Source: an uncultured Oscillospiraceae bacterium (lineage in GTDB: Bacteria > Bacillota > Clostridia > Oscillospirales > Ruminococcaceae). From it: a DNA stretch of 64,000 nt. Position numbers and translations under genes: made by a program. The notes under the pieces are model-generated. The model did not search any database. It saw nothing but the letters and a program-made list of their open reading frames with translations, and was not told the DNA's origin. This document shows positions 1 through 62,211 of this stretch, in pieces; position 1 is the first letter of the stretch, and each line of letters begins with the position of its first letter. The stretch covers positions 1-64,000 of the forward strand of contig UQDG01000008.1 in the NCBI GenBank assembly GCA_900539695.1. Direction: 5' to 3'.

Positions 1-2958
1 GGAAGGAACGCCCAGGGGGTTCAGCACGATGTCCAGCGGGGTGCCGTCGGGCAGGAAGGGCATGTCCTCCTGCGGCAGGATGCGGGAAACGACACCCTTG
101 TTGCCATGACGGCCAGCCATCTTATCGCCAACGCTGATCTTACGCTTCTGGGCGATGTAGCAGCGCACGCACATACGCACGCCGGGCTGCAGCTCGTCGC
201 TGTTCTCGGGGGTAAAGACCTTAACGTCGACCACGATACCGTAAGCACCGTGGGGCACGCGCAGAGAAGTATCGCGGACTTCGCGGGCCTTCTCACCGAA
301 GATGGCGCGCAGCAGGCGCTCCTCGGCGGTCAGCTCGGTCTCGCCCTTCGGGGTGACCTTGCCGACCAGGATGTCGCCGGTCTTGACCTCGGCACCGATG
401 CGGATGATGCCGCGGTCGTCCAGGTCTTTCAGGGCGTCGTCGCCGACGTTGGGGATGTCACGAGTGATCTCCTCGGGTCCCAGCTTGGTGTCGCGGGCTT
501 CGGTCTCGTACTCCTCGATGTGGATGGAGGTGTAGACGTCCTCGCGGACCAGCTTCTCGTTCAGCAGAACGGCGTCCTCGTAGTTGTAGCCTTCCCAGGT
601 CATGAAACCGATCAGGGCGTTCTTGCCCAGGCTGATCTCGCCGTTTTTGGTGGCGGGACCGTCAGCCAGCACGTCGCCTGCCTTGACGACATCGCCAACA
701 TTGACGATGGGGCGCTGGTTGTTGCAGTTGCCCTGGTTGGAGCGCATGAACTTGATCAGCTCATAGGTGTCGGCAGAACCGTCCGGGCAGCGCACGACGA
801 TCTTCTCGGCGTCGACAAACTCAACGGTGCCTTCGCGGGCAGCCAGGATGCAGACGCCGGAGTCGGTAGCAGCCTTGTACTCCATACCGGTAGCAACGAT
901 GGGCTGCTGGGTGACCATTAGAGGCACGGCCTGACGCTGCATGTTAGAGCCCATCAGGGCACGGTTACAGTCGTCGTTCTCCAGGAACGGGATGCAGGCC
1001 GTAGCGACGGAAACCATCATACGGGGAGAAACGTCCATGAAGTCGACCTGAGAAGCATCGAACTCCTGGATGTCGTTGCGGTGACGGCCGGAAACGCGGG
1101 GACGGACGAAGTGGTTGTTCTCGTCCAGCGGCTCGTTGGCCTGGGCAACGATATATTCGTCCTCGACGTCGGCGGTCATGTAGACGACCTCGTCGGTGAC
1201 GGTTCCGGTAGCCTTATCGACCTTGCGGTACGGGGCCTCGACAAAGCCGTACTTGTTGATCTTGGCGTAGGTAGCCAGGTAGGAGATCAGACCGATGTTG
1301 GGACCTTCAGGGGTCTCGATCGGGCACAGACGGCCGTAGTGGGTGTAATGAACGTCACGGACCTCGAAACCTGCGCGGTCACGGGACAGACCACCGGGGC
1401 CCAAGGCAGACAGACGACGCTTGTGGGTCAGCTCGGCCAGGGGGTTGTTCTGGTCCATGAACTGAGACAGCGGGCTGGAGCCGATGAACTCTTTGATAGC
1501 GGCCACGACGGGGCGGATGTTGACCAGGCTCTGCGGGGTGATCTCGCCGTTCTCCTGGTTCTGCAGGGTCATACGCTCACGGATGACGCGCTCCATGCGG
1601 GAGAAGCCGATGCGGAACTGGTTCTGCAGCAGCTCGCCGACGCTGCGGACACGACGGTTGCCCAGGTGGTCGATCTCGTCGGTCACGCCGATACCGTGGT
1701 CAAGGCCCAGCAGGTAGTTGATGGAAGCGAAGATGTCATCGACGGTGACGGTGCGGCTGATCAGAACATCGTGATTCTGGCGCAGCAGCTCTTTCTGCTC
1801 CTCGGGGTCAGAGGTGGCCTCAAGGATCTTGCGAATCTCGGCGAAGTTGGCGCGCTCGTTGATGCCGGCCTCAGCATCGACATCGAAGCTGAAGAAGGGC
1901 TGGGCGTCCACGCAGCCGTTGGAGATGACGATGACGGGGTAAGCCTCCTGGCCCTTCTTCTCCACCAGAACGGTGACGCGGGTAACACCGGCGGCATCGA
2001 TCTCGTTGGCCTTGGCCAGGTTGATCTTCTCGCCCTTGGCGGCCAGCAGTTCGCCGGTCAGGGGAGCGATGATGTCCTCGGCGGCCTTGTAACCGGCAAT
2101 GCGGCGGGCCAGCGCGAGCTTGTTGTTCATCTTATAACGGCCGAAACGAGCCAGGTCGTAGCGGCGCGGGTCGAAGAACAGGGCGTCCAGGTGGGAGCGG
2201 GAGCTCTCGACCGTCGGGGGCTCGCCGGGGCGCAGCTTGCGGTAGACTTCCAGCAGGCCTTCCTCGGTGTTATGGGTGATGTCCTTTTCGAGAGAAGCGT
2301 TGATCTTCGGTTCGGAATCGCCGAAGAACTGCTTGATCTGCTCATCGGTGGACAGGCCCAGGGCACGGATCAGGGTCGTGACAGGCAGCTTGCGGTTCTT
2401 ATCGATGCGGACATAGAAAACGTCCTGGGAGTCGGTCTCGTACTCCAGCCAGGCACCGCGGTTGGGGTTCATGGTGGCGGTGAACAGGTCCTTGCCGGTA
2501 CGGTCCTTGCTGGAGCCGTAGAACACGCCGGGAGAACGAACCAACTGGGAAACGATTGCACGCTCGGCACCATTGGAGATAAAGGTGCCGGAATCGGTCA
2601 TGAGCGGGAAGTCGCCCATGAAGATCTCCTGCTCCTTGACCTCGCCGGTCTGCTTATTGAACAGACGGGCAGTGACGTACAGGGGCGCTGCATACGTAGC
2701 GTCCCGTTCCTTACATTCTTTAATGGTATACTTGGGGGTTTTGTCCAGGCGGTAGTCCACAAACTCCAGCACGAGATTGCCGGTATAGTCCTCGATAGCG
2801 GCAATATCGTGGAAGACTTCGTGCAGACCTTCCTCCAGGAACCAGTTGTAAGAGTTTTTCTGGATCTCGATCAGATTGGGCATGCCAATCACTTCGTTGA
2901 TGCGGGAAAAGCTCATGCGGGTCGTTCTGCCGTTTTGTACGGGCTTGACCTTTACCAT
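1..2958 (-). CDS. rpoB: DNA-directed RNA polymerase subunit beta (partial, C-terminal part off the left edge)
   Basis: This is the beta subunit of RNA polymerase, which forms the catalytic pincer and the rifampicin pocket. The start is ATG at 2958 ([20 protein letters not shown]), and 986 codons run uninterrupted to the window edge, so the C-terminal part of the usual ~1200-residue protein is missing. Around residue 500 the rifampicin region reads [20 protein letters not shown], with the sensitive-type D, H, R and S residues. The last visible block is the conserved [11 protein letters not shown]. The gene has its own consensus promoter and a leader of about 160 nt. The next upstream gene is a transporter, not rplL as in the common rplJL-rpoBC order. 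Confidence 0.97.
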
Positions 2959-3124
2959 AAAACGCGACCACTCCTATTCCGTAGATTGACAAAGTCGGTA
3001 AAAGCCGACCTAAAGGAGCTGTGCGAAAGCGATGTATATTCGTCGTTTTTCACAAACTTTTGAATTTTGCCGTTTTCGCAAAATCCCTTTAGGGCGCTCT
3101 ATTCCATTTTTGTGATACTGTTTC

Positions 3125-9809: not shown

Positions 9810-10916
<1,107 letters not shown>

Positions 10917-10970
10917 AAGTACGTTCTCCTTTGGTTTTTTATATGAACACGGATGTTTGAGAGAAATTCT

Positions 10971-12755
10971 TCAATCAGATTGGGGCGGGTCGGCCGCGCC
11001 TTTTTCTTTGCGGAGTTTCGAGAAGGCGCTTAAAAACTGGTCGTCGGTAGTGCCTTTGACGGTCTGGCTGATGGGCTTGGCGTTGTCCAGCCGTTCCAGG
11101 TACATGTCAATGTCCTCCTGCTGGAGGGGGTGCCCGGCGTTGACGGCCTGGGCGCGGTTGACTTCGGCCATCGGCTTATCGTCCAGCATCTGCTGCAAGC
11201 TGGTGATGTTCACCGGCAGCTGCTCGTCCGCACAGCGGAAAATAGCCCGCAGGGCCTCCTGCATTTCGGGCAGGACCACGGCGTCCATGTTCAAACGCTG
11301 GCGCACATAGGGGATCTTTTCGGGGCTTTGCAGCAGCGCGGCGATGAGTTGCCGCCCGGCACTGGCGGCACCCAAAGCGGTATCTCCCCCGGCACTGTAG
11401 GGCACCCGGATGTCGGCGGCATTGCCCTGCCCGGCCAGGTCGCGCTGCTCTTTGCGGCGGTCGCGGCGCTGGGTGCTGCGCAGCACATCGTTCATCTGCT
11501 CCAAGATCGCCTTTTTACCCACGCCGGTCTCCTCGGCCAGGCGGCCTGCGTAGACGTCCCGCGCTGTGGGGGTAACGCCCTTGCGGGCCAGGATGTCGAT
11601 GGCGTCCTTGAGGTAGTTCAGCCGCCCGGCCGAATCCCGCAGGTCATAGTTGGCGGCAGCCTTTTTCAGCTGGAACTCCGTCGGGTCAGCGCTGCCGTCC
11701 AGCAGCATGGCGAACCGCTCCTTGCCGTATTTTTTAATGAACTCGTCCGGGTCTTTAGCGCCCTGGTAGCTCAGCACCCGCACCTTGATGTCGGCGTCGG
11801 TGAACATGGCCAGGCTGCGGGCGGTGGCCTTCTGGCCCGCCTCATCGGAGTCATAACTCAGCACCACTTCGTCGGCGTATTCGGTCAGCAGTTTGACCTG
11901 TTCGGGCGTCAAGGCGGTACCGCAGGCGCAGACGGCGGTGTCAAACCCAGCCTCGTGCATCGAGATGACGTCCATGTAGCCCTCGCACAAAATATAACGT
12001 TTATTTGGCGATTTTTTGGCCACATTCAGGGCAAACAGCGTACGGGACTTTTTGTACACCATCGTCTCGGGGCTGTTGATGTACTTGGGTTTGGAGTCGT
12101 CCAGCACACGGCCGCCGAAGGCGATGATGGCCCCGCGCACATCGATGATGGGCACCATGACGCGGTGGCGGAAGATGTCGTAGAGATTGCCCTTGGCGCT
12201 GCGCTTGACGAGGCCGGAGTATTCCAGCTCTTCCTCGGAGAAGCCGAGGCGGCGCAGGTAATGCAGCAGGCCGGTGAAATCCTCGGGCGCGTAGCCCAGA
12301 CCGAAGCGGCGGATGGCGGCGTCGGACAGGCCGCGCTTTTCCCGCCAGTAGCGGCGGGCCAGGGCGGCTTCGGGCGTGCGGGCGTTGAGCTGCTCGTAAA
12401 AGTAGCGGGCGGCGCAGCGATTGATCTCTAAGAGGCGCTGCCGGGCGCGGGATTCCTTATCGTCCTCCTCGGGCAGGGGCATGCCTGCACGGCTGGCCAG
12501 CTGTTTGACGGTCTCGACATAGCCGAGGTTATTGTACTTGCGCACAAAGCTGATAACATCCCCTGCCGCGCCGCAGCCGAAGCAGTAAAAGCTCTGAGTG
12601 TCCGGGTAAACCACGAAGGAAGGCGTTTTTTCGTTATGGAACGGGCAAAGGCCGGTGAGGGTGCGCCCGCGGCGGCGGAGCTGAACGTATTGGCCTACGA
12701 TGTCCTCAATATCGTTGCGGCGAACGACTTCCTGGATGTATTCCTGGGGGATCAT
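10971..12755 (-). CDS. dnaG: DNA primase
   Basis: This 594-residue protein makes RNA primers at replication forks. It has an N-terminal zinc-binding domain (C37-P-F-H40 and CFGCG near residue 61), the RNA polymerase core and a Toprim fold (EGYMDV and SYDSDEAGQKA, about residues 255-320). A C-terminal helicase-interaction domain (about residues 440-594) follows. The start is ATG at 12755 (MIPQEYIQEVV), the family-typical N-terminus. A GTG five codons upstream would abut the GGAGG. It lies between dgt and rpoD in one transcription direction. Confidence 0.96.
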   Translation of the reverse strand: MIPQEYIQEVVRRNDIEDIVGQYVQLRRRGRTLTGLCPFHNEKTPSFVVYPDTQSFYCFGCGAAGDVISFVRKYNNLGYVETVKQLASRAGMPLPEEDDKESRARQRLLEINRCAARYFYEQLNARTPEAALARRYWREKRGLSDAAIRRFGLGYAPEDFTGLLHYLRRLGFSEEELEYSGLVKRSAKGNLYDIFRHRVMVPIIDVRGAIIAFGGRVLDDSKPKYINSPETMVYKKSRTLFALNVAKKSPNKRYILCEGYMDVISMHEAGFDTAVCACGTALTPEQVKLLTEYADEVVLSYDSDEAGQKATARSLAMFTDADIKVRVLSYQGAKDPDEFIKKYGKERFAMLLDGSADPTEFQLKKAAANYDLRDSAGRLNYLKDAIDILARKGVTPTARDVYAGRLAEETGVGKKAILEQMNDVLRSTQRRDRRKEQRDLAGQGNAADIRVPYSAGGDTALGAASAGRQLIAALLQSPEKIPYVRQRLNMDAVVLPEMQEALRAIFRCADEQLPVNITSLQQMLDDKPMAEVNRAQAVNAGHPLQQEDIDMYLERLDNAKPISQTVKGTTDDQFLSAFSKLRKEKGAADPPQSD

Positions 12756-21881: not shown

Positions 21882-21931
21882 AAAAAAATGAAGGAAGCCC
21901 CACTAAGAAACGCTTCTATAGTGGAACTTCC
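21882..21931 (-). terminator. Riboswitch expression-platform terminator
   Basis: GGAAGTTCCACTA pairs with TAGTGGGGCTTCC (13 bp, two G-U pairs), with AGAA/TTCT continuing into the loop, then TTCATTTTTTT on the minus strand. It lies between the riboswitch aptamer and the sensor-kinase start. Confidence 0.85.
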
Positions 21932-21971
21932 ATATTTGAACAGTTTTATTTATATGCTATAAATGTATAAG

Positions 21972-22045
21972 CTGTGCAACTGGCTGCCATTTTACAGGCC
22001 CTATAGCTTTGCGTCGCAGCCTTTCAGCTGTTTTGCCCTATGTAG
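21972..22045 (-). ncRNA. Cyclic-di-GMP-I riboswitch (GEMM-I)
   Basis: The minus strand reads AGGGCAAAAC, a CAGCT-GAAA-GGCTG hairpin with the GNRA loop, the invariant CGACGCAAAGC, TATAGGGCCT, and TGGCAGCCAGTTGC for the receptor side. This is the conserved GEMM-I core in the right order. A consensus promoter precedes it and an intrinsic terminator follows it, making a transcriptional switch for the sensor kinase. Whether ligand turns the gene on or off cannot be decided by eye. Confidence 0.9.
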
Positions 22046-22056
22046 TTATATATGCC

Positions 22057-22086
22057 ATTATACAACCCGCCAAACCCCCGTGTCAA
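22057..22086 (-). promoter_or_regulatory. Promoter of the riboswitch-sensor kinase transcript
   Basis: TTGACA, an 18-nt spacer and TATAAT lie on the minus strand. Transcription should begin near 22050, a few nucleotides before the aptamer. Confidence 0.9.
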
Positions 22087-41398: not shown

Positions 41399-41430
41399 TG
41401 TAGGGGTCGATGCAAGCATCCACCCCTACA
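41399..41430. repeat. Dispersed TGTAGGGG palindrome
   Basis: TGTAGGGGTCGATGC and GCATCCACCCCTACA form an inverted repeat directly after the J-domain gene. It is almost identical to the copy at 55561. Confidence 0.7.
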
Positions 41431-41460
41431 CCTTTATTTTCGTTCAATGTTCATCTAAAC

Positions 41461-41494
41461 AAAAAGCCCGAACCTTTTTTTAAGGTCCGGGTAT
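41461..41494 (-). terminator. Terminator of the esterase-dehydrogenase-YkgJ operon
   Basis: CCCGGACCTT pairs with AAGGTTCGGG (one mismatch) around an A-rich loop and is followed on the minus strand by CTTTTTG. It begins 4 nt after the operon's last stop codon. Confidence 0.8.
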
Positions 41495-41497
41495 TTT

Positions 41498-42172
41498 TTA
41501 TGCCAGCAGCTTCTCCAAAAGCGGCTGCAAAATCTCAATATTCTGTTGGAACTGCGGGTAAAAATCGTCCCCCAGTTCGTAGTCATAATACAGCGCCCGC
41601 TCCACACGCTTTACGGCAGCGGCAAAATGCGGGTGGTCAGCGGCAGCCTGCAGCTGCTCGGACAAGCGGGTACACACCACGGCCCAGCGGGCGTCGATGC
41701 CCGCACGGTCCAAAATGGCGGCATCGGTCAGGTAATCGTTCAGCACACGGCCACCGTCTGTCCGCGCCCCGCAAAGCGGCGTCTGCACGTAATATTCGAT
41801 TTTCGCCGTCACAGGGTCGATGCTCTGCCCCAGCGGGTACAGCGCGCAGGCCAGCGGCCGCGCCGCATGGATGGCGCAGGCGCTGCCCTCAAAAAAGCGG
41901 CAGTTTCCGGTCCTGGGGTCGGGGGTCAGGCGCAGGGCGGGCAGCAGCGTTTGCGGGGCCAGGTAGCTTTTGCAGAACGCTCCCGCCACGATGCGGGGCG
42001 ACAACCCCAGCCGCCGGGCGATGCGGTACAGATCGTACCCGGACAGCACCAGATCCCGCCGTCCGCGGCAGCAGCAACCGCACCCGGCGCAGGCAAAGTC
42101 AAAGCTGTCCCCTGCCGCAATGCGCGGCAGGTCATCCCAGTTCTCACCGCTGCGGCCGGGTTCCACGGTCAC
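41498..42172 (-). CDS. YkgJ family cysteine cluster protein
   Basis: This 224-residue protein has the YkgJ/UPF0153 cysteine pattern: FACAGCGCCCRG (residues 27-38), a later CRFF and SACAIHAARPLACALYPLG. These residues probably bind zinc or an iron-sulfur cluster; the family's function is unsettled. Its start overlaps the stop of the dehydrogenase gene by 4 nt (42169-42172), so they are translationally coupled. It is the last gene of the operon. Confidence 0.9.
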   Translation of the reverse strand: MTVEPGRSGENWDDLPRIAAGDSFDFACAGCGCCCRGRRDLVLSGYDLYRIARRLGLSPRIVAGAFCKSYLAPQTLLPALRLTPDPRTGNCRFFEGSACAIHAARPLACALYPLGQSIDPVTAKIEYYVQTPLCGARTDGGRVLNDYLTDAAILDRAGIDARWAVVCTRLSEQLQAAADHPHFAAAVKRVERALYYDYELGDDFYPQFQQNIEILQPLLEKLLA

Positions 42173-43155
42173 AGCGGCACCTCGCAGGGGTTGGAGCGGC
42201 CCGCGGCAAAGTCTGTCAGTTCCTCAAAGCCGCTGCGCACCATGCTGGCCACGTTCACGTCGGTATAAAAGGCGTTATGGGGACTGACGATGACGTTGGG
42301 CATACTGCGCAAGATGTTCATCGTGCGGTGGGGCAGCGCAGCGCCGGCGCGGTTGAAGTAGACGAGGTCGTTCTCCCCCTCGACCACATCCAGCCCGGCG
42401 CCGCCGACCTTGCCGCTTTCCAGCGCAGCAATCAACGCCTCTTCGTCGATCAGCGCACCGCGGGCGGTGTTGACGATGAGCACGCCGTCCTTCATCTTGG
42501 CCAGCGACTCGGCATTGATGAGGTGGTGGTTCTCGGCGGTGGCATTGGTGTGCAGGGTGATGACGTCGCTGCGGGCGTACAACTCATCCAGCGGGACATA
42601 CTCGGCCATTTGGGCCACCTCGTCGCTCTGGTACAGGTCGTAGGCCAAAATTTTGCAGCCAAAGCCCTGCAAATGGGCAATGACAGTGCGGCCGATTTTG
42701 CCGGTGCCGATGACGCCTACCGTGCAGTTGGACAAATCCTTGCCCATCTTGCCGGGCAGCGTGTAATCCTGGGCGGCGGCACGCAGCATGGTCTGGTTCA
42801 TCTTGCGGGTACACATCAGCATCAGCATGATGGCGTAGTTGGCCACACCTTCCGGCGGGTAGTGGCTGTGGGCTACCCGCATGCCCAGCTTTTTGGCGGT
42901 CTCCAGCGGGATATGATCGTAGCCGATGCTGCGGCAAAGCAGGTACTTTACGCCCATCCTGGCCCAGGCCTCGACGTACTCGGGCAGAATTTCGCAGGGA
43001 TTCTGGCTGACGGCATCGCAGCCTGCGGCCTTGTCCAGATTTTCCGGGCAGGGTGCGCCGGGGATCGTCACGTAGTCGATGCCGAACTCCCTGCTGAACT
43101 GCTCGATATACGCCTGCTCGTCGAAGGGGCGCATTTGGTAAAATGCGATCTTCAT
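42169..43155 (-). CDS. D-2-hydroxyacid dehydrogenase (D-lactate dehydrogenase/VanH-like)
   Basis: This 328-residue NAD-dependent enzyme probably reduces pyruvate to D-lactate. The Rossmann loop is VGVIGTGKIGRTVI (about residues 147-160). The catalytic Arg is in VNTARGALID, Glu in LDVVEGEND and His in SPHNAFYT. RSIGYDHI and HYPPEGVANYAIMLMLM place it with fermentative D-LDH and VanH rather than with phosphoglycerate dehydrogenases. There is no van ligase next to it, so a fermentative role is favoured. It is 15 nt downstream of the esterase gene and overlaps ykgJ. Confidence 0.9.
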   Translation of the reverse strand: MKIAFYQMRPFDEQAYIEQFSREFGIDYVTIPGAPCPENLDKAAGCDAVSQNPCEILPEYVEAWARMGVKYLLCRSIGYDHIPLETAKKLGMRVAHSHYPPEGVANYAIMLMLMCTRKMNQTMLRAAAQDYTLPGKMGKDLSNCTVGVIGTGKIGRTVIAHLQGFGCKILAYDLYQSDEVAQMAEYVPLDELYARSDVITLHTNATAENHHLINAESLAKMKDGVLIVNTARGALIDEEALIAALESGKVGGAGLDVVEGENDLVYFNRAGAALPHRTMNILRSMPNVIVSPHNAFYTDVNVASMVRSGFEELTDFAAGRSNPCEVPL

Positions 43156-43170
43156 ATACTCCCCTCCCTG

Positions 43171-43980
43171 TTACAGATGAAAATGTAAGGTTTCAGCCAG
43201 CCAATCGGTGCACAGGGACACCCAGGCGGCGTTGTGGCGGTTGGGGGTGTTGACCTCCTGCGTACAGGTGCTGGAGCCATGCCCGCCGTGGGTGAAAAGG
43301 TGCAGCTCGTAGGGCACGTGGTTTTCGGTCAGGGCGCTGGCCAGCAGCAGCGAGTTTTCCACCGGCACAGCCTGGTCGGCCACGGTGTGCCAGATGAAGA
43401 ACGGCGGCAGATCGCCGCGCACCTGGTTTTCCAGGCTGAAGATCGCCTGCAGGGCGGTATCGTCCCCGGCCAGGTTGGCGATGGACCCGCCGTGGGTCTT
43501 GATGCCCGACGTAATGACCGGGTAGCCCAGCACAACAGCGTCGGGGCGGGCTTCCTCGGCGGTGATACCCAGGGCTTTCTGCACGGGGGCGGCGTCCCAC
43601 AAAATGGCGGTGGACGCGGCCAGGTGCCCGCCAGCCGAGAAGCCGCAGACCGCGATCTTGAACGGGTCCAGCCGCAGTTTGGCGGCGTTGCGGCGCAGAT
43701 GCAGGATGGCGCCGGCGGCGTCGATCAACGGCTGCCAGCGCAGAGGGGCCTGCTCCGGCGTGTGGGCACAGGTGTATTCCAGCACAAAGGTCTGGTAGCC
43801 CGCCTGCAAAAACTGCATGGCGATGGGGTCTGCCTCCCGCGCGCTGCAAAAGGCATACCCGCCACCGGGCAAAATCAGCATCGCCGGGCGGATATTGAAG
43901 GCAGGCATCTCGTTGGTTTCGTCCCGCAGGTAACCGGTAAGTTTGGCCCCGCTGGGGAGAGTGTGGGTGTATAATTGCAT
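43171..43980 (-). CDS. Alpha/beta hydrolase (acetyl-esterase-like)
   Basis: This 269-residue cytoplasmic hydrolase has the nucleophile elbow GFSAGGH (about residue 109), an oxyanion segment ILPGGGYAF, an acid-bearing WHTVADQAVP and the His-bearing FTHGGHGSS. It resembles acetyl-xylan esterase/BD-FAE-type enzymes, which deacetylate plant polysaccharide fragments. ATG at 43980 follows GAAAGGAAGAAG; upstream in-frame codons fall in an A+T-rich promoter region. It is first of three genes with the dehydrogenase and YkgJ protein. The exact substrate is not evident. Confidence 0.88.
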   Translation of the reverse strand: MQLYTHTLPSGAKLTGYLRDETNEMPAFNIRPAMLILPGGGYAFCSAREADPIAMQFLQAGYQTFVLEYTCAHTPEQAPLRWQPLIDAAGAILHLRRNAAKLRLDPFKIAVCGFSAGGHLAASTAILWDAAPVQKALGITAEEARPDAVVLGYPVITSGIKTHGGSIANLAGDDTALQAIFSLENQVRGDLPPFFIWHTVADQAVPVENSLLLASALTENHVPYELHLFTHGGHGSSTCTQEVNTPNRHNAAWVSLCTDWLAETLHFHL

Positions 43981-46152: not shown

Positions 46153-47511
46153 TTACAGCGGCAGGGTCAAAGCAGCGGCCGCGCCGTGGGGCAGTGCTTG
46201 GGCAAAAGCGGCAGTGCCGCCGTGGGCGGCTAGGATCTGCTCTACCACATGCAGGCCTAAAATGTGCGGGGGATTCTCCCCTGTTTCGCCAGCCTGCAAT
46301 ACGGCCAGCACGGCGGGCGGGTAGCCCTGGCCGTCGTCGGTCACCTGGATGGTCAGCATGCCGTCCGCCGCATCCGCGCGGATGGTGACATGCACGGGGA
46401 CTGCATTGTGGCCGACAGTGTTGTGCAAAAGGTTTTCGATGGCCCGCAGAAGCAGGGCTTCGTCCGCCTGCACCACCGTGTGTTCTGCCGCCTGGGTCAG
46501 TTCCAGTTCAAGGGTGCTGTCACCTGCGGCGGGGCTTTCGTAAAATTCGGCGGCACACCGGCGCAGGAACGGGCCGACCGTCACAGCCTTGCGGCGTAAA
46601 GGCTGTGCGCCGTATTGCAGCTTGCTGGTCAAGTTCAAATCGCCGATGAGCGACCGTATCTTCTCGCTTTGGGTGCAGATGCCCGCGGCTTTCTGCCGGG
46701 CTGCGGCAGGCAGGACCTCATCCTGCTGCAGCTGCTCGCCCCAGCCCAGGATCAGCGCCAGCGGCGTGCGGATGTCATGGCTGACACCTGCGATCCAATC
46801 GGTGCGGGCGGTGTCCCTCCGGGCGATGATCTCATTGCGGCGGCGCAGCTGCTCGCCGGTCTCGTTCAGCTTTTCGGCCAGCTCCCCGGCAAAGCCGGTG
46901 GTGGGCAGCTGCACCGCGCCGCCCTGGGCTAAAGTGTCCAGCCCGTCCGCCACCGCCTGCAAATGGCGTGCCCCGCGCCAGCTGAACCACAGGCAGCACC
47001 CCAGCACCACGGCCAGCAGCAGCACCGCTACCGGCAGCAGCCCGCCGACCATTGCCTCCATGCGTGCCTGCGGGGCGGTGATGTTGTATTTCCATTGGCT
47101 GCCGACTGGCTCTGCTGCCACAAACAGGCCGTAATCCGCCGCCCAGCACTGCACGGGGTAATCGGCCAGATACCAGCGGGAGAACACTGCAATATCGCTG
47201 GCGGTGTAGCGGTGGTTCAGCGCCTCGGGCAGGTCTTGCTGCCAGATAACGTTGCCGTCCTCGTCCAGCACCATGGCCCAGGCATAGCCGTGCATCCACT
47301 CGGCCGGGGTGTGGGCGGCGTCCCGTTGCAGGCCGTCGGCGGTGGGGTGCAGGGCCTCGGCCAAGGCACCCACTTTTTGCACACTGTCGGATGCGCCATT
47401 GTACCGCACTCCGGCGTAGATCGTCATGCCCAGCAGCAGCGCCACCACCACCAAAATGATACCCGCCGTGGCCAGTACATAGCGGCGGATGAGACGCGCA
47501 AAAGTTTTCAT
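46153..47511 (-). CDS. Sensor histidine kinase of a two-component system
   Basis: This 452-residue membrane kinase has two membrane helices (about residues 12-34 and 150-175) around an extracytoplasmic domain of some 115 residues. HAMP-like and HisKA (GVSHDIRTPLALILGWGEQL) segments follow, then a HATPase domain (NLLHNTVGHN, VTDDGQGYPP). The usual G2 box GLGL is degenerate (PHILGLHVVEQ), so ATP-lid function may differ. Its start overlaps the stop of the response regulator by 4 nt. The pair is divergent from an ABC exporter, the usual layout of antimicrobial-peptide sensing modules. Confidence 0.93.
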   Translation of the reverse strand: MKTFARLIRRYVLATAGIILVVVALLLGMTIYAGVRYNGASDSVQKVGALAEALHPTADGLQRDAAHTPAEWMHGYAWAMVLDEDGNVIWQQDLPEALNHRYTASDIAVFSRWYLADYPVQCWAADYGLFVAAEPVGSQWKYNITAPQARMEAMVGGLLPVAVLLLAVVLGCCLWFSWRGARHLQAVADGLDTLAQGGAVQLPTTGFAGELAEKLNETGEQLRRRNEIIARRDTARTDWIAGVSHDIRTPLALILGWGEQLQQDEVLPAAARQKAAGICTQSEKIRSLIGDLNLTSKLQYGAQPLRRKAVTVGPFLRRCAAEFYESPAAGDSTLELELTQAAEHTVVQADEALLLRAIENLLHNTVGHNAVPVHVTIRADAADGMLTIQVTDDGQGYPPAVLAVLQAGETGENPPHILGLHVVEQILAAHGGTAAFAQALPHGAAAALTLPL

Positions 47512-48227
47512 CGCTGCGCCTCCCCTGCCAGCTTATAGCCGATGCCCCGCACCGTCAACAGCCATTGGGGGCGGCTGGCGTTTTCCTCCAGCTTTTCCCG
47601 CAGGTGGCGGATATGCACGTTCAGCGCGTTCTCGCAGCCGTAATAGTCCGCGCCCCAGACGGCCTCGCACAGGGCGTCGTAGGTCACGATGTGCCCGCGG
47701 TTGTCTGCCAACTTTTGCAGCAGGGCGCGCTCGGTGGCGGTCAGAGGCAGGGTCACGCCGTCGGGGCGGTACACGGTAGCATCGTCCAGATCGACCTGGC
47801 AGTCCCCCAGCTCCAGGGCAGGCGGGGCGGCGCGGCACAGTTCGGCCCGGTAGGCGCGCTGCAAAATACGCTGCACCCGCAAAAGCAATTCCTGCATCAA
47901 AAAGGGCTTGGTCAGGTAGTCGTCCGCGCCAAGGCCCAGCCCCAGCAAGCGGTCAGCGTCAGCGTCTCGAGCCGAAAGGAACAGCGCGGGCACATCAGCC
48001 TTGGCGTGCAGCTGGCGCAATAGGGTAAAGCCGTCGCCGTCCGGCAGGTTGATGTCCAAGATCATTAACTCCGGCGCAGCAGCGGCAAACAGTGCCCGGG
48101 CCTCGGCACATGTGGCAGCGGTGCGGATGCAGGTATACCCCGCCGTGCGCAGGCTGTCCCCCACCAGCACCAGCAGATCGGGGTTATCATCCACCAATAA
48201 AATCGATGCTTCGTAAATCGTCTGCAT
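47508..48227 (-). CDS. OmpR/PhoB family response regulator
   Basis: This 239-residue regulator has a receiver domain (residues 7-120: LLVDDNPD, phosphoacceptor in MILDINLPDGDG, K in DYLTKPF) and a C-terminal winged helix (about 140-236: LTATERALLQKLADNRGHIV, NVHIRHLREKLE, VRGIGYKL). ATG at 48227 (MQTIYEAS) follows AGGAG; codons upstream belong to the leader. It is first in the pair with the kinase. Four 11-bp direct repeats at 48291-48334, between this gene and the divergent exporter, are a likely binding site. Confidence 0.95.
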   Translation of the reverse strand: MQTIYEASILLVDDNPDLLVLVGDSLRTAGYTCIRTAATCAEARALFAAAAPELMILDINLPDGDGFTLLRQLHAKADVPALFLSARDADADRLLGLGLGADDYLTKPFLMQELLLRVQRILQRAYRAELCRAAPPALELGDCQVDLDDATVYRPDGVTLPLTATERALLQKLADNRGHIVTYDALCEAVWGADYYGCENALNVHIRHLREKLEENASRPQWLLTVRGIGYKLAGEAQR

Positions 48228-48246
48228 AGTCTCAACTCCTACCTTT

Positions 48247-48275
48247 ATTATACACGCCCTGCGCACCGCTGCCAG
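48247..48275 (-). promoter_or_regulatory. Promoter of the two-component genes
   Basis: CTGGCA, 17 nt and TATAAT lie on the minus strand, with a short leader before the regulator ATG. Confidence 0.7.
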
Positions 48276-48290
48276 CGTTCGTGGAAAATC

Positions 48291-48344
48291 TTAAGGCAAA
48301 ATTAAGCTGGGCTTACGGGGCAGATAAGATTTGGCGTTTATACT
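48291..48344 (+). promoter_or_regulatory. Four 11-bp direct repeats plus -10 box: candidate response-regulator operator of the exporter
   Basis: TTAAGGCAAAA, TTAAGCTGGGC, TTACGGGGCAG and ATAAGATTTGG follow each other with exact 11-bp period (48291-48334), the helical-turn spacing of OmpR/PhoB boxes. TATACT (48339-48344) follows and there is no good -35 box, as expected for an activated promoter. The predicted start, near 48351, faces the ABC exporter. Confidence 0.65.
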
Positions 48345-48353
48345 GGGCTTGTA

Positions 48354-48535
48354 CTTAAGGCAACACCGCACAATTCCCGCCTGACGGCTTAAGCACCGCT
48401 CCGGCGGCCGCGGCACGGCATCTGCGTTGCCAAAATGCTCGATAATACACAAAGTATTATCTGCGCTTTTGGCTTAGCATCTGCCGCACCTCGCTCGCCG
48501 TATCGGCACTTAGAATTATGCGGTATTGCCTTAAG
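48354..48535. mobile_element. MITE-like element, copy 1, in the leader of the ABC exporter
   Basis: This non-coding element has terminal inverted repeats: AGGCAACACCGCACAATTC at the left and its near complement at the right (17 of 19 positions). CTTAAG-type flanks extend the symmetry. The core of 174 nt (48358-48531) differs from the copy at 62291-62464 at only two positions. A central hairpin GATAATAC/GTATTATC lies within longer GCCAAAA/TTTTGGC arms. There is no open reading frame. It ends 8 nt before the exporter ribosome-binding site, so the element lies within the transcribed leader. Confidence 0.85.
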
Positions 48536-48558
48536 ATACGAGTAAGGAGCGTGTGACT

Positions 48559-49479
48559 ATGCAAAACGTGATTGAAACCGACGCCCTGTGCAAGCGCTAT
48601 GGCAGCCATCTGGTGGTGGATCATCTGGCGCTGACCGTGCCGGAGGGCTGTGTCTACGGCTTTTTAGGCCCCAACGGTGCGGGCAAATCCACCACGATGA
48701 AGATGCTGCTGGGTCTGGTGCACCCCACCGGCGGCACGGTGCGGCTGCTGGGCCGGGAGATGACCGACGCCAACCGCCTGGCTCTGCTGCGGCAGACCGG
48801 CAGTCTGATCGAGTCGCCCTCCGGCTACCTGCACCTGACCGCGCGGGAGAATCTGGAGATCGTGGCCGACTTAAAAGGTGTGCCCCACAAGGACATTGCC
48901 CGTGTACTGGACATTGTACAGCTGACCAATGACCAGCACCGCAAGGTGGGGCAGTATTCGCTGGGCATGAAGCAGCGGCTGGGCATCGCCATGGCCCTGC
49001 TGGGCAGTCCCAAGCTGCTGGTGCTGGACGAACCCACCAACGGCCTGGACCCCGCCGGTATCCAGGAGATGCGGGAACTCATCCGCACCATGCCCGCCGC
49101 CACCGGAGCCACTGTGCTGATCTCCAGCCATCTGCTGGGCGAGATGGAGCAGATGGTGGAGCATGTGGGCATCATCGACCATGGGCGGATGCTGTTTGAA
49201 GGCCCGCTGACTGAACTGCAGCGCCACAGCAAGGGTGCGCTGACCCTGCGGCTGCTGCACCCTGCCAAGGCTTTGCCGGTGCTGCAGGCCAACGGGCTGC
49301 CCACCGCCGCAGTGGGCGAGGATAACACCATCGCCCTGCCGCCCCTGCGAGATGACCTGCTGGCGGGCCTGGTGCAGGCCTTAGCGGACAGCGGCGCCGG
49401 GGTGGTGGGCCTGACCCAGCACACCAGGACGCTGGAGGAAATTTTCCTGACGCTGACCGCGCCGAAGGAGGTGGGCTGA
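48559..49479 (+). CDS. Lantibiotic/bacitracin-type ABC transporter ATP-binding protein
   Basis: This 306-residue ATPase of the BcrA/MutF/EpiF type has Walker A GPNGAGKSTTMKMLLG (about residues 36-51), signature YSLGMKQRLGIAMALLG, Walker B LLVLDEPTNGLDPAG and H-loop LISSHLLGEM. A C-terminal extension follows. ATG at 48559 lies 9 nt after AAGGAG; a GTG at 48553 is too close. It is followed at 1 nt by two ABC-2-type permease genes. Its divergent two-component system suggests induction by, and protection against, a peptide antibiotic. Confidence 0.94.
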   Translation: MQNVIETDALCKRYGSHLVVDHLALTVPEGCVYGFLGPNGAGKSTTMKMLLGLVHPTGGTVRLLGREMTDANRLALLRQTGSLIESPSGYLHLTARENLEIVADLKGVPHKDIARVLDIVQLTNDQHRKVGQYSLGMKQRLGIAMALLGSPKLLVLDEPTNGLDPAGIQEMRELIRTMPAATGATVLISSHLLGEMEQMVEHVGIIDHGRMLFEGPLTELQRHSKGALTLRLLHPAKALPVLQANGLPTAAVGEDNTIALPPLRDDLLAGLVQALADSGAGVVGLTQHTRTLEEIFLTLTAPKEVG

Positions 49480-49480
49480 G

Positions 49481-50233
49481 ATGCTGCAAGCCCTGCATGC
49501 CGAATGGCAGAAAGCCCGCCGACGCCACGATCTTGTGCTGTGCCTTACCTTTGCGGTCATCCTCTATCTCTGGCTGGGCAGCACCGCGCCCACCGGGCAG
49601 GATGAACTGGCCAACGCCTACAGCGCCCTGTTTTTCGGCGCGCCCATCATCAATACCATTTTGCTGCCGGTGCTGATGGCCGTACTGGCCAGCCGGTTGT
49701 GGGATGTGGAGGTCAAAGGCTATACAGCCAAACTGCTTTACACCCTGCAAAGCCGCCGCAGTTTGTTCTTCGGCAAGGCGGTGTTTGGGCTGGGGGAAAT
49801 TGTGCTGATGGTCGCGCTGGAAGCCGCCGTCCTCCTGCTGCTGGGGCACACGCAAGGCTACACCGAGGCCTTTCCTGCCGGGCAGTTTGCCTACCTCAAC
49901 CTCTGCACGCTGACGGTCTGCACCATGCTTTACTTTTCGGAGCTGCTGCTGGCGCTGTGGTTCAGCAATCCCCTGCCTGCGGTGTGCGTGGGCGTCATCG
50001 GTGCGCTGCTGGGTCTGTTCTCGGCTTTTATGCCGCAGATCGCCAGCTATTTTGTGCCCTGGGGCTACTTTGTGCCGCTGTGCAGCTACGAGGTCAAGGT
50101 CTGGGACCAGGCCAGCCACACCGTACTTTACGGCACGCGGCCCTGCAACTGGGGGCTGTTGGTATTTACCTTTGGGCTGGCGGTCTCTTTGTTTGGCGTT
50201 TGCTGGCGCGTGATGTGCAATAAGGAGGTATGA
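49481..50233 (+). CDS. Lantibiotic immunity ABC transporter permease, MutE/EpiE type
   Basis: This 250-residue membrane protein begins MLQALHAEWQKARRRHDLVL and has about six helices. It belongs to the ABC-2 permeases paired with BcrA-like ATPases that remove lantibiotics from the membrane. Its start lies 1 nt after the ATPase stop, with GGAGGTGGG as ribosome-binding site within the ATPase coding end. It probably forms a heterodimer with the next permease. Confidence 0.9.
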   Translation: MLQALHAEWQKARRRHDLVLCLTFAVILYLWLGSTAPTGQDELANAYSALFFGAPIINTILLPVLMAVLASRLWDVEVKGYTAKLLYTLQSRRSLFFGKAVFGLGEIVLMVALEAAVLLLLGHTQGYTEAFPAGQFAYLNLCTLTVCTMLYFSELLLALWFSNPLPAVCVGVIGALLGLFSAFMPQIASYFVPWGYFVPLCSYEVKVWDQASHTVLYGTRPCNWGLLVFTFGLAVSLFGVCWRVMCNKEV

Positions 50234-50236
50234 ACC

Positions 50237-50971
50237 ATGCTGAAACGCTGTATTACAGCCGAAAACCGCAAGCTGCACCGCTCGCCGATCTGGCTACTGT
50301 TTTTTGTGATGCCGCTGATCTCGGCCAGTTACGGCACCTTCAACTACCTGCAAAATCTCGAAATCCTGCACGAGCGCTGGTACAGCTTGTGGACCCAGCA
50401 CACGCTGTTTTACTCGATGCTGTTCTTCCCTGCCATGGTGGCGGCCTATGCGGCCTACCTGTGGCGGCTGGAGCATATGGGCCACAACTGGAATTTAATT
50501 ATGGCCGCCCCCGTGCCGCCGCTGGATCTGTTTTTGGCCAAGTTCTGCGTGGTGTTTAAGCTGGCGCTGTTCACCCAAGTCTGGGAACTGACACTGTTTG
50601 TTGCCTGCGGCAAGCTGTTTGCCCAGTTTCCCGATTGGCCGCCGGTGGAACTGATTTTGTTTGGGCTGCGGGGCACAGTAGGGGCGCTGGCGGTGATTGC
50701 AGCGCAATTGCTGCTGGCCATGGTCCTCCGCAGCTTTGCGGTGCCGATCTTCCTTGCCATTGTCGGCGGCATCGTGGGCATGCTGCTGGGCAGCAAGGGG
50801 TATTCCCTCTTTTGGCCCTACTGCCTGATGCAGGCTGGCATGAACGCCAACCGCAGCGAGGATATTCTCGCCGGGCAGGGCGTGCAGTTTGCCGCCGCCA
50901 GCGCCTTTTGGCTGGCAGCCATATTTGTAACGGCCTACTTGCTTTTAAAAGAACGTGACGTGAAAGCTTAA
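50237..50971 (+). CDS. Lantibiotic immunity ABC transporter permease, MutG/EpiG type
   Basis: This 244-residue membrane protein begins MLKRCITAENRKLHRSPIWL and has about six helices, with the family-typical LWRLEHMGHNWNLIMAAPV after helix 2. It follows the first permease by 3 nt and AAGGAGGT precedes it. The ATPase plus two dissimilar permeases is the standard FEG arrangement of lantibiotic self-protection or resistance systems. No lantibiotic biosynthesis genes are nearby, so resistance to foreign peptides is favoured. Confidence 0.9.
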   Translation: MLKRCITAENRKLHRSPIWLLFFVMPLISASYGTFNYLQNLEILHERWYSLWTQHTLFYSMLFFPAMVAAYAAYLWRLEHMGHNWNLIMAAPVPPLDLFLAKFCVVFKLALFTQVWELTLFVACGKLFAQFPDWPPVELILFGLRGTVGALAVIAAQLLLAMVLRSFAVPIFLAIVGGIVGMLLGSKGYSLFWPYCLMQAGMNANRSEDILAGQGVQFAAASAFWLAAIFVTAYLLLKERDVKA

Positions 50972-59413: not shown

Positions 59414-60328
59414 ATGCAGCTGCCGAATCCTTGTACCCTTTGCCCCCGTGCCTGCCGGGCGGACCGCGCCCACGGGCAGCGGGGTTTCTGTGGGGCCGAT
59501 GGCACTTTGCGGGTGGCCCGCGCCGCCCTGCACCACTGGGAGGAGCCGTGCCTGAGCGGCGACCCCAACGCCGCCACCGGCAGCGGTACGGTGTTTTTTT
59601 CCAACTGCGCGCTGCGGTGCTGCTACTGCCAGAACTATCCCATCAGCCAGGGGGATGTGGGCAAAGAAATTACCGTGGAGCGGCTGACGGAAATCTTTCT
59701 CGCGCTGCAAAAGAGCGGCGCGAAAAACTTAAACCTTGTCACCGCCACCCAATACCTGCCCTGGGCACTGCCCGCGCTGGATGCCGCACGGGCGGCAGGT
59801 TTTGCCCTGCCGGTCGTCTACAATACCGGTGGGTATGAGACGTTGGAGACCGTCAAGGCACTGGCCGGCTACGTAGATATTTGGCTGGCCGATGTAAAAT
59901 ATGCCAGCCCGGACCTGGCGGCCGAGCTATCCGCCGCGCGGGATTATCCCGCCGTAGCCGAAGCCGCCCTGCGGCAGATGCTGCGCCAGGCCGGTGCGCC
60001 AGTGTACGATGCCGACGGCTACCTGCAAAAGGGCGTCATCGTGCGGCACCTGGCCCTGCCCGGCCACACTGACGACAGCTTTGCCGTGCTGGCGCTGCTG
60101 GCCCGCATCCGGGACGAGGAGGGCGTGCCTTTCATTCCCAGCCTGATGAGCCAGTTCACGCCGTTTTATAAGGCGGCCGAACATAATTTGGGGCGGCGCA
60201 TCACGACCTACGAGTACCGCAAGGTCATCGACGAGGCGGTGCGCCTGGGCCTGACCGACGGCTACATGCAGGAGAAAAGCAGTGCGCGGGAAGAATACAC
60301 CCCGCCCTTTGACCTGGAGGGCGTGTGA
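59414..60328 (+). CDS. PflX-like radical SAM protein
   Basis: This 304-residue radical SAM enzyme of the PflA-related COG1313 group has the cluster motif SNCALRCCYCQNYPISQ (C-x3-C-x2-C, about residues 70-85) and an N-terminal CTLCPRACRADRAHGQRGFC typical of this group. The substrate is unknown; relatives activate glycyl-radical enzymes, and none is in the window. ATG at 59414 follows AAAGAGG; a GTG six codons earlier includes that ribosome-binding site. Its stop overlaps the start of the next gene (TGATG). Confidence 0.9.
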   Translation: MQLPNPCTLCPRACRADRAHGQRGFCGADGTLRVARAALHHWEEPCLSGDPNAATGSGTVFFSNCALRCCYCQNYPISQGDVGKEITVERLTEIFLALQKSGAKNLNLVTATQYLPWALPALDAARAAGFALPVVYNTGGYETLETVKALAGYVDIWLADVKYASPDLAAELSAARDYPAVAEAALRQMLRQAGAPVYDADGYLQKGVIVRHLALPGHTDDSFAVLALLARIRDEEGVPFIPSLMSQFTPFYKAAEHNLGRRITTYEYRKVIDEAVRLGLTDGYMQEKSSAREEYTPPFDLEGV

Positions 60329-62211
60329 TGCTTATCGGTATCGCGTATCTGGCGCTGTTTTTGGCCGCCGGGCTGCTGCTGGCACGGTGGGCCGTGCCAG
60401 ACGGCTCCCTTGCCGTGGCGGTCCCGCTAGGGTGCGGGTTTTGTGTTTCGTTGCTGGCGGCGCTGCCCGCCGGGTTCGCGCTGGTGTGCGGCTTCACGCT
60501 GCGGGCCGTCTGGCTTGCGGCTGCCGGGGCCGCCCTGCTTTGCGCGGTATTGATTTTTGCCGGGCGCGGACATATCCGTTTTGCTAGGGACCCCGACCGC
60601 GGCGCGATGTGGCTCTGCCTGCTGCCGGTGCTGGCCGTGACGCTGTACCTGCTGCACACCCATGTGCTGCACAAGGTAAACGGCACGCTGCACACCGGTC
60701 AGAGCTGCTACGGCGACATGCCGATGCACCTGGGGTTCATCGAGTACATTGCCCAGAGCGGCCAGTTCCCACCCCGGTATCCCCTGCTGGCCGGGGCGCA
60801 CCGGTTCGGCTACCCGTTTTTGTGCGAGACCGTGTCCAGCGTGTTCCGTCTGCTGGGGGCCGGGCGGCGGGCGGCGTATCTGCTGCCGATGGTGCCCGCC
60901 TTTGTCAGCGTATACGGCATGTTCTGGCAGTTGGCGCGGCGGATGCTGGGCAGCGCGGGCAAAGCGTGTCTGGCGTTTTATCTGTTTTTCATGGGCAGCG
61001 GGTTCGGTTTTGCCTACTTTTTAAAAGATGCCGCGACGTTTAAAGGTATCTTTACCGGGTTTTACACTACGCCCACCAACTATACGACGAAAAATATCGT
61101 GTGGGTCAACCCTATCGTGGATCTGCTGATCCCCCAGCGGGCCACGCTGTTTGGATGGTGCGTGCTGTTTGCGGCGCTGTACCTGCTGTGGCGATTCGCG
61201 TTTGAGGGTGGGTCACATCTTTGGCTGCCGCTGGCGGTGCTGGTATTGCCTCTGCCCCTTTTGCAGACCCACAGTGCGCTGGCGCTGGTGTTCCTCTGTT
61301 TGGCGGGCGGACTGTACACGCTGACCCGCCGCTCCCGCACGGCCAAAAATTTGCTGCCCTGGCTGGGACTGGCGGCGGTGTGCGGCGTGTGCTGGCTGGC
61401 CGAGATGTCCGGCACGGTGCTGGCCCAAAGCCTGGACGGCACCAACATGCTGCGGCTGCACTTCAACTGGGTCAACGGCAACGGCGACGGCACGCTGAAA
61501 GACCCGTGGCTGTGGTTTTACGTAAAAAATATCGGCCTGGTGTTTCTGCTCATCCTGCCGGCTGTGCGCCATGCCGGCACCCGCCAGCGCTGGCTGTTTG
61601 GCGGCGGTGCGGCGCTTTGGCTGCTGGCAGAGTTTGTGGTGTTCCAGCCCAACAACTACGATAATAACAAGCTGCTGTTTATTACCCACGCCCTTGGCTG
61701 TATGCTGGCAGCGCAATTGCTGGCGGATTGGGCCAAACGGCTGCGCCCCCCTGCCCTGCGGGCGGCGGTGATCGCGGTTTGCTGTTTTGTGGGCATGTTC
61801 GGCAGCGTGCTGACCGTGGGACGGGAGCTGGTGAGCGACTACCAGCAGTGGGACGCCTCTGACATTGCGTTAGCCGACTATATCAGCAAAAACGCCGAAA
61901 GCGACGCACTGTTTTTGACCAGTGACAGCCACCTGACTCCGGTGTTCGCCCTGGCCGGGCGGCGCATTGTCTGTGGTTCGTCCAGCTGGGTGTATTTCCA
62001 CGGCATGGACTACGGGGCTGAGTATGCGGCCATGCAGGCTTTGTATGAGACCCCGGATGAGGATACTTTGCAGACCTGGGGCGTGGATTACGTGGTATTT
62101 GACGGCTCTGCCCTGGCCCGGTTTGACACTGATGAAGATTGGTATGCGGAGCGGTTCCCGGTGTGGTACGAGGATACGGGATGCAGAATTTATAAAACAG
62201 CCGCGCCCTAA
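60328..62211 (+). CDS. Polytopic membrane protein, GT-C glycosyltransferase-like
   Basis: This 627-residue protein has about 12 membrane helices and a soluble C-terminal domain (about residues 500-627). The first large loop holds YGDMPMHLGFIEYIAQSG, an acidic motif placed like the catalytic aspartate of GT-C (PMT/ArnT-type) enzymes that use polyprenyl-phosphate sugars. The C-terminal part (TSDSHLTPVFALAGRRIVCG) resembles the ends of such proteins. ATG at 60328 follows GGAGG; it overlaps the radical SAM stop. The assignment rests on topology and motif position and is moderate. Confidence 0.75.
   Translation: MLIGIAYLALFLAAGLLLARWAVPDGSLAVAVPLGCGFCVSLLAALPAGFALVCGFTLRAVWLAAAGAALLCAVLIFAGRGHIRFARDPDRGAMWLCLLPVLAVTLYLLHTHVLHKVNGTLHTGQSCYGDMPMHLGFIEYIAQSGQFPPRYPLLAGAHRFGYPFLCETVSSVFRLLGAGRRAAYLLPMVPAFVSVYGMFWQLARRMLGSAGKACLAFYLFFMGSGFGFAYFLKDAATFKGIFTGFYTTPTNYTTKNIVWVNPIVDLLIPQRATLFGWCVLFAALYLLWRFAFEGGSHLWLPLAVLVLPLPLLQTHSALALVFLCLAGGLYTLTRRSRTAKNLLPWLGLAAVCGVCWLAEMSGTVLAQSLDGTNMLRLHFNWVNGNGDGTLKDPWLWFYVKNIGLVFLLILPAVRHAGTRQRWLFGGGAALWLLAEFVVFQPNNYDNNKLLFITHALGCMLAAQLLADWAKRLRPPALRAAVIAVCCFVGMFGSVLTVGRELVSDYQQWDASDIALADYISKNAESDALFLTSDSHLTPVFALAGRRIVCGSSSWVYFHGMDYGAEYAAMQALYETPDEDTLQTWGVDYVVFDGSALARFDTDEDWYAERFPVWYEDTGCRIYKTAAP

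Follow-up and report, generated by a model that had tools for sequence, protein, structure and literature searches.

A class I c-di-GMP riboswitch leader precedes a stand-alone hybrid sensor kinase gene in an uncultured Oscillospiraceae bacterium

Results and Discussion

The 64,000-nucleotide stretch of contig UQDG01000008.1 from an uncultured Oscillospiraceae bacterium (the window) carries a cyclic di-GMP (c-di-GMP) riboswitch of class I upstream of a hybrid histidine kinase gene. As read from its sequence, the element is a genuine c-di-GMP-I riboswitch, of a known type whose target is unusual here, and one short leader brings the promoter, aptamer and terminator together with the gene. We propose, with a probability of about 0.6, that it uses a transcription-termination platform to set the expression of a stand-alone BvgS/EvgS-like kinase and favour an OFF switch, polarity and binding both being predicted. 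The unusual feature is a hybrid kinase as the target of a class I riboswitch; the riboswitch class is already known, and there is a precedent for a sensor-kinase operon controlled through c-di-GMP. If the switch works as predicted, a second messenger would decide, through the number of receptor kinases, how sensitive the cell is to a nutrient or peptide signal from outside, and two signalling layers would be linked in a way open to test. The c-di-GMP biology of these bacteria is, to our knowledge, little studied. Composition and the labels of relatives suggest, as a guess, that the host comes from the gut and belongs to a Gemmiger-like genus.

The riboswitch leader

A first-pass annotation of the same DNA had described a promoter, a GEMM-I aptamer, a terminator and a 937-residue hybrid kinase with two solute-binding protein (SBP) domains in that order, and Rfam, promoter matching, folding and Pfam bear out both the order and the coordinates. 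All the elements, from the promoter to the start codon, lie on the strand of the kinase gene (Table 1). The covariance search that it proposed with the Rfam GEMM-I model was clearly passed: the RF01051 match reaches 56.6 bits against a gathering cut-off of 35 (E 2.1e-8) and spans the full length of the model (1-87), and no other Rfam family matched the 64-kb window at its gathering score. The promoter, announced as consensus, is exactly that; TTGACA/TATAAT pairs of this quality at a spacing of 16-18 occur twice in the window and not at all in 100 shuffles. The second of them, TTGACA-17-TATAAT, lies at 15448-15420 of the minus strand. The terminator hairpin is also present, but the 13 bp ascribed to it fall short, as the stem has 17 bp, made up of 13 bp, a bulged U and 4 further bp under the loop GCGU, and is followed by seven U. 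This terminator (21931-21882) was absent from the output of a simple terminator scan. The leader from 22047 to 21870 folds better than its own shuffles (z -2.33).

Table 1. Features of the leader and kinase in the window, and riboswitch loci in the nearest genus
Feature	Position	Strand	Remarks
Sigma-70-type promoter, TTGACA-18-TATAAT	22086-22057	minus	12/12 consensus positions
c-di-GMP-I (GEMM-I) riboswitch aptamer, 76 nt	22047-21972	minus	RF01051; GAAA tetraloop hairpin and P3
Aptamer core GACGCAAAGCUAUAG	22015-22001	minus	GACGC 22015-22011, CUAUAG 22006-22001; putative antiterminator strands
UUUAUAGC	21963-21956	minus	forms an alternative anti-P3 helix with P3 strand GCUAUAGG (22007-22000) in folds without ligand
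Intrinsic terminator hairpin, 17 bp	21931-21893	minus	one bulged U, loop GCGU; folding
Terminator U-tract, U7	21888-21882	minus	sequence
AGGGGG, likely ribosome-binding site	21880-21875	minus	TTG start 5 nt further on; sequence
Hybrid histidine kinase gene, 937 aa, TTG start	21869-19056	minus	Pfam: SBP_bac_3 twice, HisKA, HATPase_c, Response_reg
Kinase layout (residues)			signal helix; Venus flytrap (VFT) domains ~36-262 and ~283-505; transmembrane segment ~514-535; H574 in HisKA; HATPase; D867 in REC
Riboswitch locus L118 (G980)			before 302-aa exported protein without Pfam match, TasA-like by eye
Riboswitch locus L119 (G978)			before open-ended 448-aa open reading frame, surface protein-like by eye
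Riboswitch locus L164 (G933)			before 947-aa SBP_bac_3-HisKA-HATPase-REC kinase
Riboswitch locus L163 (G977)			before SBP_bac_1 lipoprotein gene overlapping hybrid kinase (PAS_3, HisKA, HATPase, two REC)

Polarity of the switch

In folds of partial transcripts the terminator's 5' arm and loop can pair with the core strands GACGC and CUAUAG, in a duplex of -11.9 kcal/mol. At low c-di-GMP the core (GACGC...CUAUAG) would engage this arm and loop (CUAUAG..GCGUU, with GCGUU at 21913-21909), the polymerase would read through and the kinase would be made. With c-di-GMP bound, the core would instead be held in the aptamer, the terminator would form and less kinase would be synthesised. A sensor kinase for extracellular solutes would in this way be made mainly at low c-di-GMP.

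Two other explanations of the leader's action were weighed. The first is an ON switch, which we think rather unlikely. Here c-di-GMP would free UUUAUAG (21963-21957) from the anti-P3 helix, and the freed strand would block termination by pairing with CUAUAGA, part of the 5' arm of the terminator, so that high c-di-GMP would give more kinase, as with the class II switch of cmrRST. The anti-P3 helix GCUAUAGG/UUUAUAGC is indeed part of the lowest-energy fold of transcripts of 95-135 nt and is incompatible with the aptamer, and the motif CUAUAG is repeated in the terminator arm. Moreover, regulation of cmrRST, the precedent of class II, is positive (PMC8844915), and homologous GEMM aptamers can work as either ON or OFF switches (PMC9262584). 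However, by inspection the pairing of the freed strand with the arm amounts to just 7 A/U-rich pairs; when the aptamer was enforced, folds lacked UUUAUAG-arm pairing at all 13 lengths tested; and the class I switches of C. difficile are OFF.

Still less probable is that the leader is the relic of an aptamer, with constitutive attenuation by the terminator and c-di-GMP no longer relevant. The closing helix P1 is poor, few pairs being possible by inspection, and in finished transcripts the terminator beats every alternative; about half of the nearest genus lacks strong GGDEF matches, and RF01051 has no match in the vicinity of three kinase relatives (53-55% identity). Decay of the aptamer is at odds with its score of 56.6 bits, with the intact ligand-contact positions, GNRA loop and P3, and with the compact spacing of aptamer, terminator and start codon. 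The weak P1 has a counterpart in C. difficile Cd1, which binds its ligand though it has no detectable P1 (PMC9262584). An OFF switch is our preferred reading.

As for the ligand, aptamers of the cyclic GMP-AMP (cGAMP) type, GEMM-Ib, have an A at position 20; at the equivalent position the window aptamer has G. With the Vc2 numbering carried onto the Rfam alignment, we take the equivalents of positions 20, 47 and 92 to be the G of GGGCAAAA, the middle A of GCAAAG and the C of UUGC. G20, A47 and C92 are binding-pocket residues of c-di-GMP-I aptamers (PMC9049102), and because the window's equivalents are G, A and C, the pocket fits c-di-GMP, the predicted ligand under this numbering, rather than cGAMP. 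A different cyclic dinucleotide, for example 3',3'-cGAMP, which Geobacter GEMM-I aptamers bind (PMC8835794 and PMC6456294), is a highly improbable ligand given the G at position 20, and was dropped.

The first-pass annotation had also stated that the window holds no GGDEF or EAL gene. This agrees with the absence of Pfam matches to either family from the 46 open reading frames (ORFs) scanned, which are part of the window's ORFs, and with a six-frame search of the window that returned no GG[DE]EF, EAL-like, PilZ-like or HHE..DG.GYP motif. One HD protein in the window matches HD_assoc and not HD_5 by Pfam.

The hybrid kinase

In the kinase, H574 (SHDIRTP) and D867 (FMDMQMP) are unchanged across 56 aligned sequences, the window's own included. 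An AlphaFold2 model built on this alignment has two alpha/beta domains followed by a long helix with the transmembrane segment; because its mean predicted local distance difference test score is 78.6 and its predicted TM-score 0.44, it is informative for the domains and not for their arrangement. Among its best Foldseek matches are the periplasmic parts of BvgS (4q0c) and EvgS (9ilw) and the tandem binding domains of GlnPQ (6h30).

Kinases of the BvgS/EvgS type have a PAS domain between the transmembrane segment and HisKA, and a C-terminal HPt domain. The window's kinase shares with them the tandem VFT domains outside, the transmembrane segment and the HisKA-HATPase-REC order inside; it differs in having no PAS, no HPt and no neighbouring response regulator, and in the predicted riboswitch control of its expression. 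Pfam gave no PAS or HPt match in the protein, in which only some 30 residues separate the transmembrane segment from HisKA and 6 residues extend beyond the REC match. The gene stands alone: a phosphoglucomutase-like gene lies 590 bp downstream and a Mg-chelatase gene, which we take to be ComM-like, upstream, and Pfam matched neither a response regulator nor an HPt family in the adjoining genes. The other pair of histidine kinase and response regulator seen in the window is at 46.2-48.3 kb, 24 kb away.

Relatives of the kinase

Kinase relatives were sought in overlapping sets of 148, 200, 394, 35, 22 and 301 genomes, with strict E-value limits in all but the set of 148. Identity of 53-55% over most of the protein was found only in G001, G002 and G1010, the remainder among the matches listed being at or below 44%, and in G006 the match (51%) is confined to the solute-binding part. 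In the protein collection, a cluster of 1,239 sequences is headed by a 98% identical relative, orthologues P0002-P0007 are at 70-75% identity, and many relatives are at about 57-63%. A scan of viral contigs returned no relative. The family is patchy among genomes, which hints at transfer. In the Ruminococcus-labelled metagenome-assembled genome of locus L001 (5974-8801), the 55% relative is split into two ORFs of 130 and 806 aa, perhaps by a frameshift.

The comparison of leaders in related genomes, also proposed by the first-pass annotation, gave a divided answer: two other species of the genus have the riboswitch before different hybrid kinases (see below), while the closest kinase relatives whose upstream DNA was read (L001, L002 and L247, the three of 53-55% identity) have no RF01051 match nearby at gathering score, and L001 and L002 have none up to E 1 either. 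This comparison covers the 53-55% relatives. Because these three lack the riboswitch, its coupling to the kinase is, to judge by the leaders compared, no fixed property of the kinase family, which also counts against our proposal, and it looks lineage-specific.

Riboswitches in the nearest genus

By DnaG, the window is nearest to G895, G807 and G964 (79-80% identity; 396 genomes of the host's family searched). RF01051 is present in 4/35 genomes of the genus of G895 (G933, G977, G978 and G980), and two of these four riboswitches precede other hybrid kinases. As in the window, a c-di-GMP-I leader stands before an SBP-type hybrid kinase (L164) or before an SBP lipoprotein gene with a hybrid kinase behind it (L163). 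The G933 kinase is only 33% identical to that of the window, so the two are different genes; in the L163 kinase Pfam detects no SBP domain, and this kinase too is not orthologous to the window's. The L164 and L163 leaders are 77% identical over 313 nt, though the genes behind them differ; between them and the window leader only about 80 nt match.

That such leaders recur in front of unrelated kinases suggests a module that can be reused. We tentatively raise the possibility, with less confidence than the OFF switch itself, that the lineage has repeatedly recruited class I switches to hybrid kinases linked to solute sensing (three non-orthologous kinases in three species), c-di-GMP then choosing outside sensors and not only surface structures.

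GGDEF matches occur in 34/35 genomes of the genus and reach E below 1e-30 in 16/35; matches of this strength are present in G933, G977, G980 and G964 and not in G978, G895 or G807. The shared core GACGCAAAGCTATAGGG was rejected as a mark of a kinase-specific riboswitch lineage, since it is also found before pilin-like and exported proteins (L180, L174); it is present in 21 loci, five of which are views of the G933 and G977 sites. At L164 (G933:C87) and L163 (G977:C62), one leader stands before different genes, as if shuffled. Upstream of the riboswitch kinase in L164, on the opposite strand at 9834-12485, are genes that look ParA-, ParB- and toprim-like from their translations, suggesting the edge of a mobile element.

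Riboswitch targets across the family

RF01051 matched in 92 of the 396 family genomes, in 87 of them above the cut-off. The riboswitch places number at least about 150, of which 110 were read as loci; 30 of these have flanks that do not exceed 1.5 kb, and the other 80 form a separate set. An ORF of at least 90 aa starting near the aptamer was taken to Pfam for 92 of the 110; the other 18 had no such ORF. The commonest families among these first genes are related to the surface or to export: List_Bact_rpt (10), type IV pilin N_methyl (9), LRR_5 (8), FecR (7), dockerin (6), Transglut_core (6), VTC (4) and cohesin (3). That surface genes predominate among class I targets, as the first-pass annotation held, is therefore true of the host's family. 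Signalling families are few among the first-gene families listed (GGDEF 2; EAL, MCP, CheW and HD_5 1 each), and because 25 of the 63 matched families are shown, this listing is no proof that kinases are absent.

A tblastn search with the kinase domain over the 110 family and four genus loci found one family kinase, as the second gene of L208. A distal kinase domain can go undetected in the 30 loci with 1.5-kb flanks and in 13 of the other 80 (below 3.2 kb), as it does in L120 and L121, and the enrichment test was for this reason limited to the 67 loci that measure 3.2 kb or more. A hybrid kinase is a rare target of the family's c-di-GMP-I riboswitches. Kinases stand at 2/4 genus loci versus 1/67 family loci (p 0.007), or 3/5 versus 1/67 with the window counted in (p 0.0007), figures tempered by small numbers, a post hoc framing and the treatment of the homologous G933 and G977 leaders as independent. 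For the core test, each of the 100 sites (of 121) in which the core motif could be located was shuffled 60 times.

Possible c-di-GMP feedback loops are seen in the family, with riboswitches before an SBP-GGDEF protein (L191), a dCache-PAS-GGDEF protein (L233) and, as second gene, an HD_5 protein (L172). c-di-GMP-I aptamers are arranged in tandem or in threes, within stretches of a few hundred bases, at G118:C3, G034:C3, G034:C18, G030:C138 and G572:C12.

Comparison with known systems

The closest parallel for the leader is the c-di-GMP-I class (RF01051), for example Cdi1_3 before flgB in C. difficile (PMC3649979), which is alike in aptamer sequence and fold, 5' untranslated region position and terminator platform. 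Known class I targets are mostly motility, adhesion or envelope genes, whereas the target in the window is a hybrid sensor kinase. For the gene, the nearest parallel is cmrRST of C. difficile, where the class II riboswitch Cdi-2-2 likewise controls a gene set with a sensor kinase (PMC8844915). Because this class II control is known, the idea of joining two signalling layers is less new than the first-pass annotation suggested. The arrangements differ: cmrRST has a class II aptamer and co-transcribed response regulators, the window a class I aptamer and a lone hybrid kinase, with RF01051 the sole match at gathering score and no response regulator in the adjoining genes scanned. Signalling targets of class I are also known already, since elements of this class lie upstream of diguanylate cyclase, phosphodiesterase and tfoX-like regulator genes (review, PMC12564702) and before a norR regulator gene (survey, PMC11124144). 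A search largely outside the subscription literature turned up no class I switch described in front of a hybrid histidine kinase, which leaves novelty unproven.

Other features of the window

Three long ORFs of 592-660 aa, none of them matched by Pfam, lie at 1081-3060, 41410-43185 and 60325-62208. Finally, the region 46156-50968 carries a histidine kinase and an OmpR-type regulator next to an ABC transporter with two ABC2_membrane_4 permeases.
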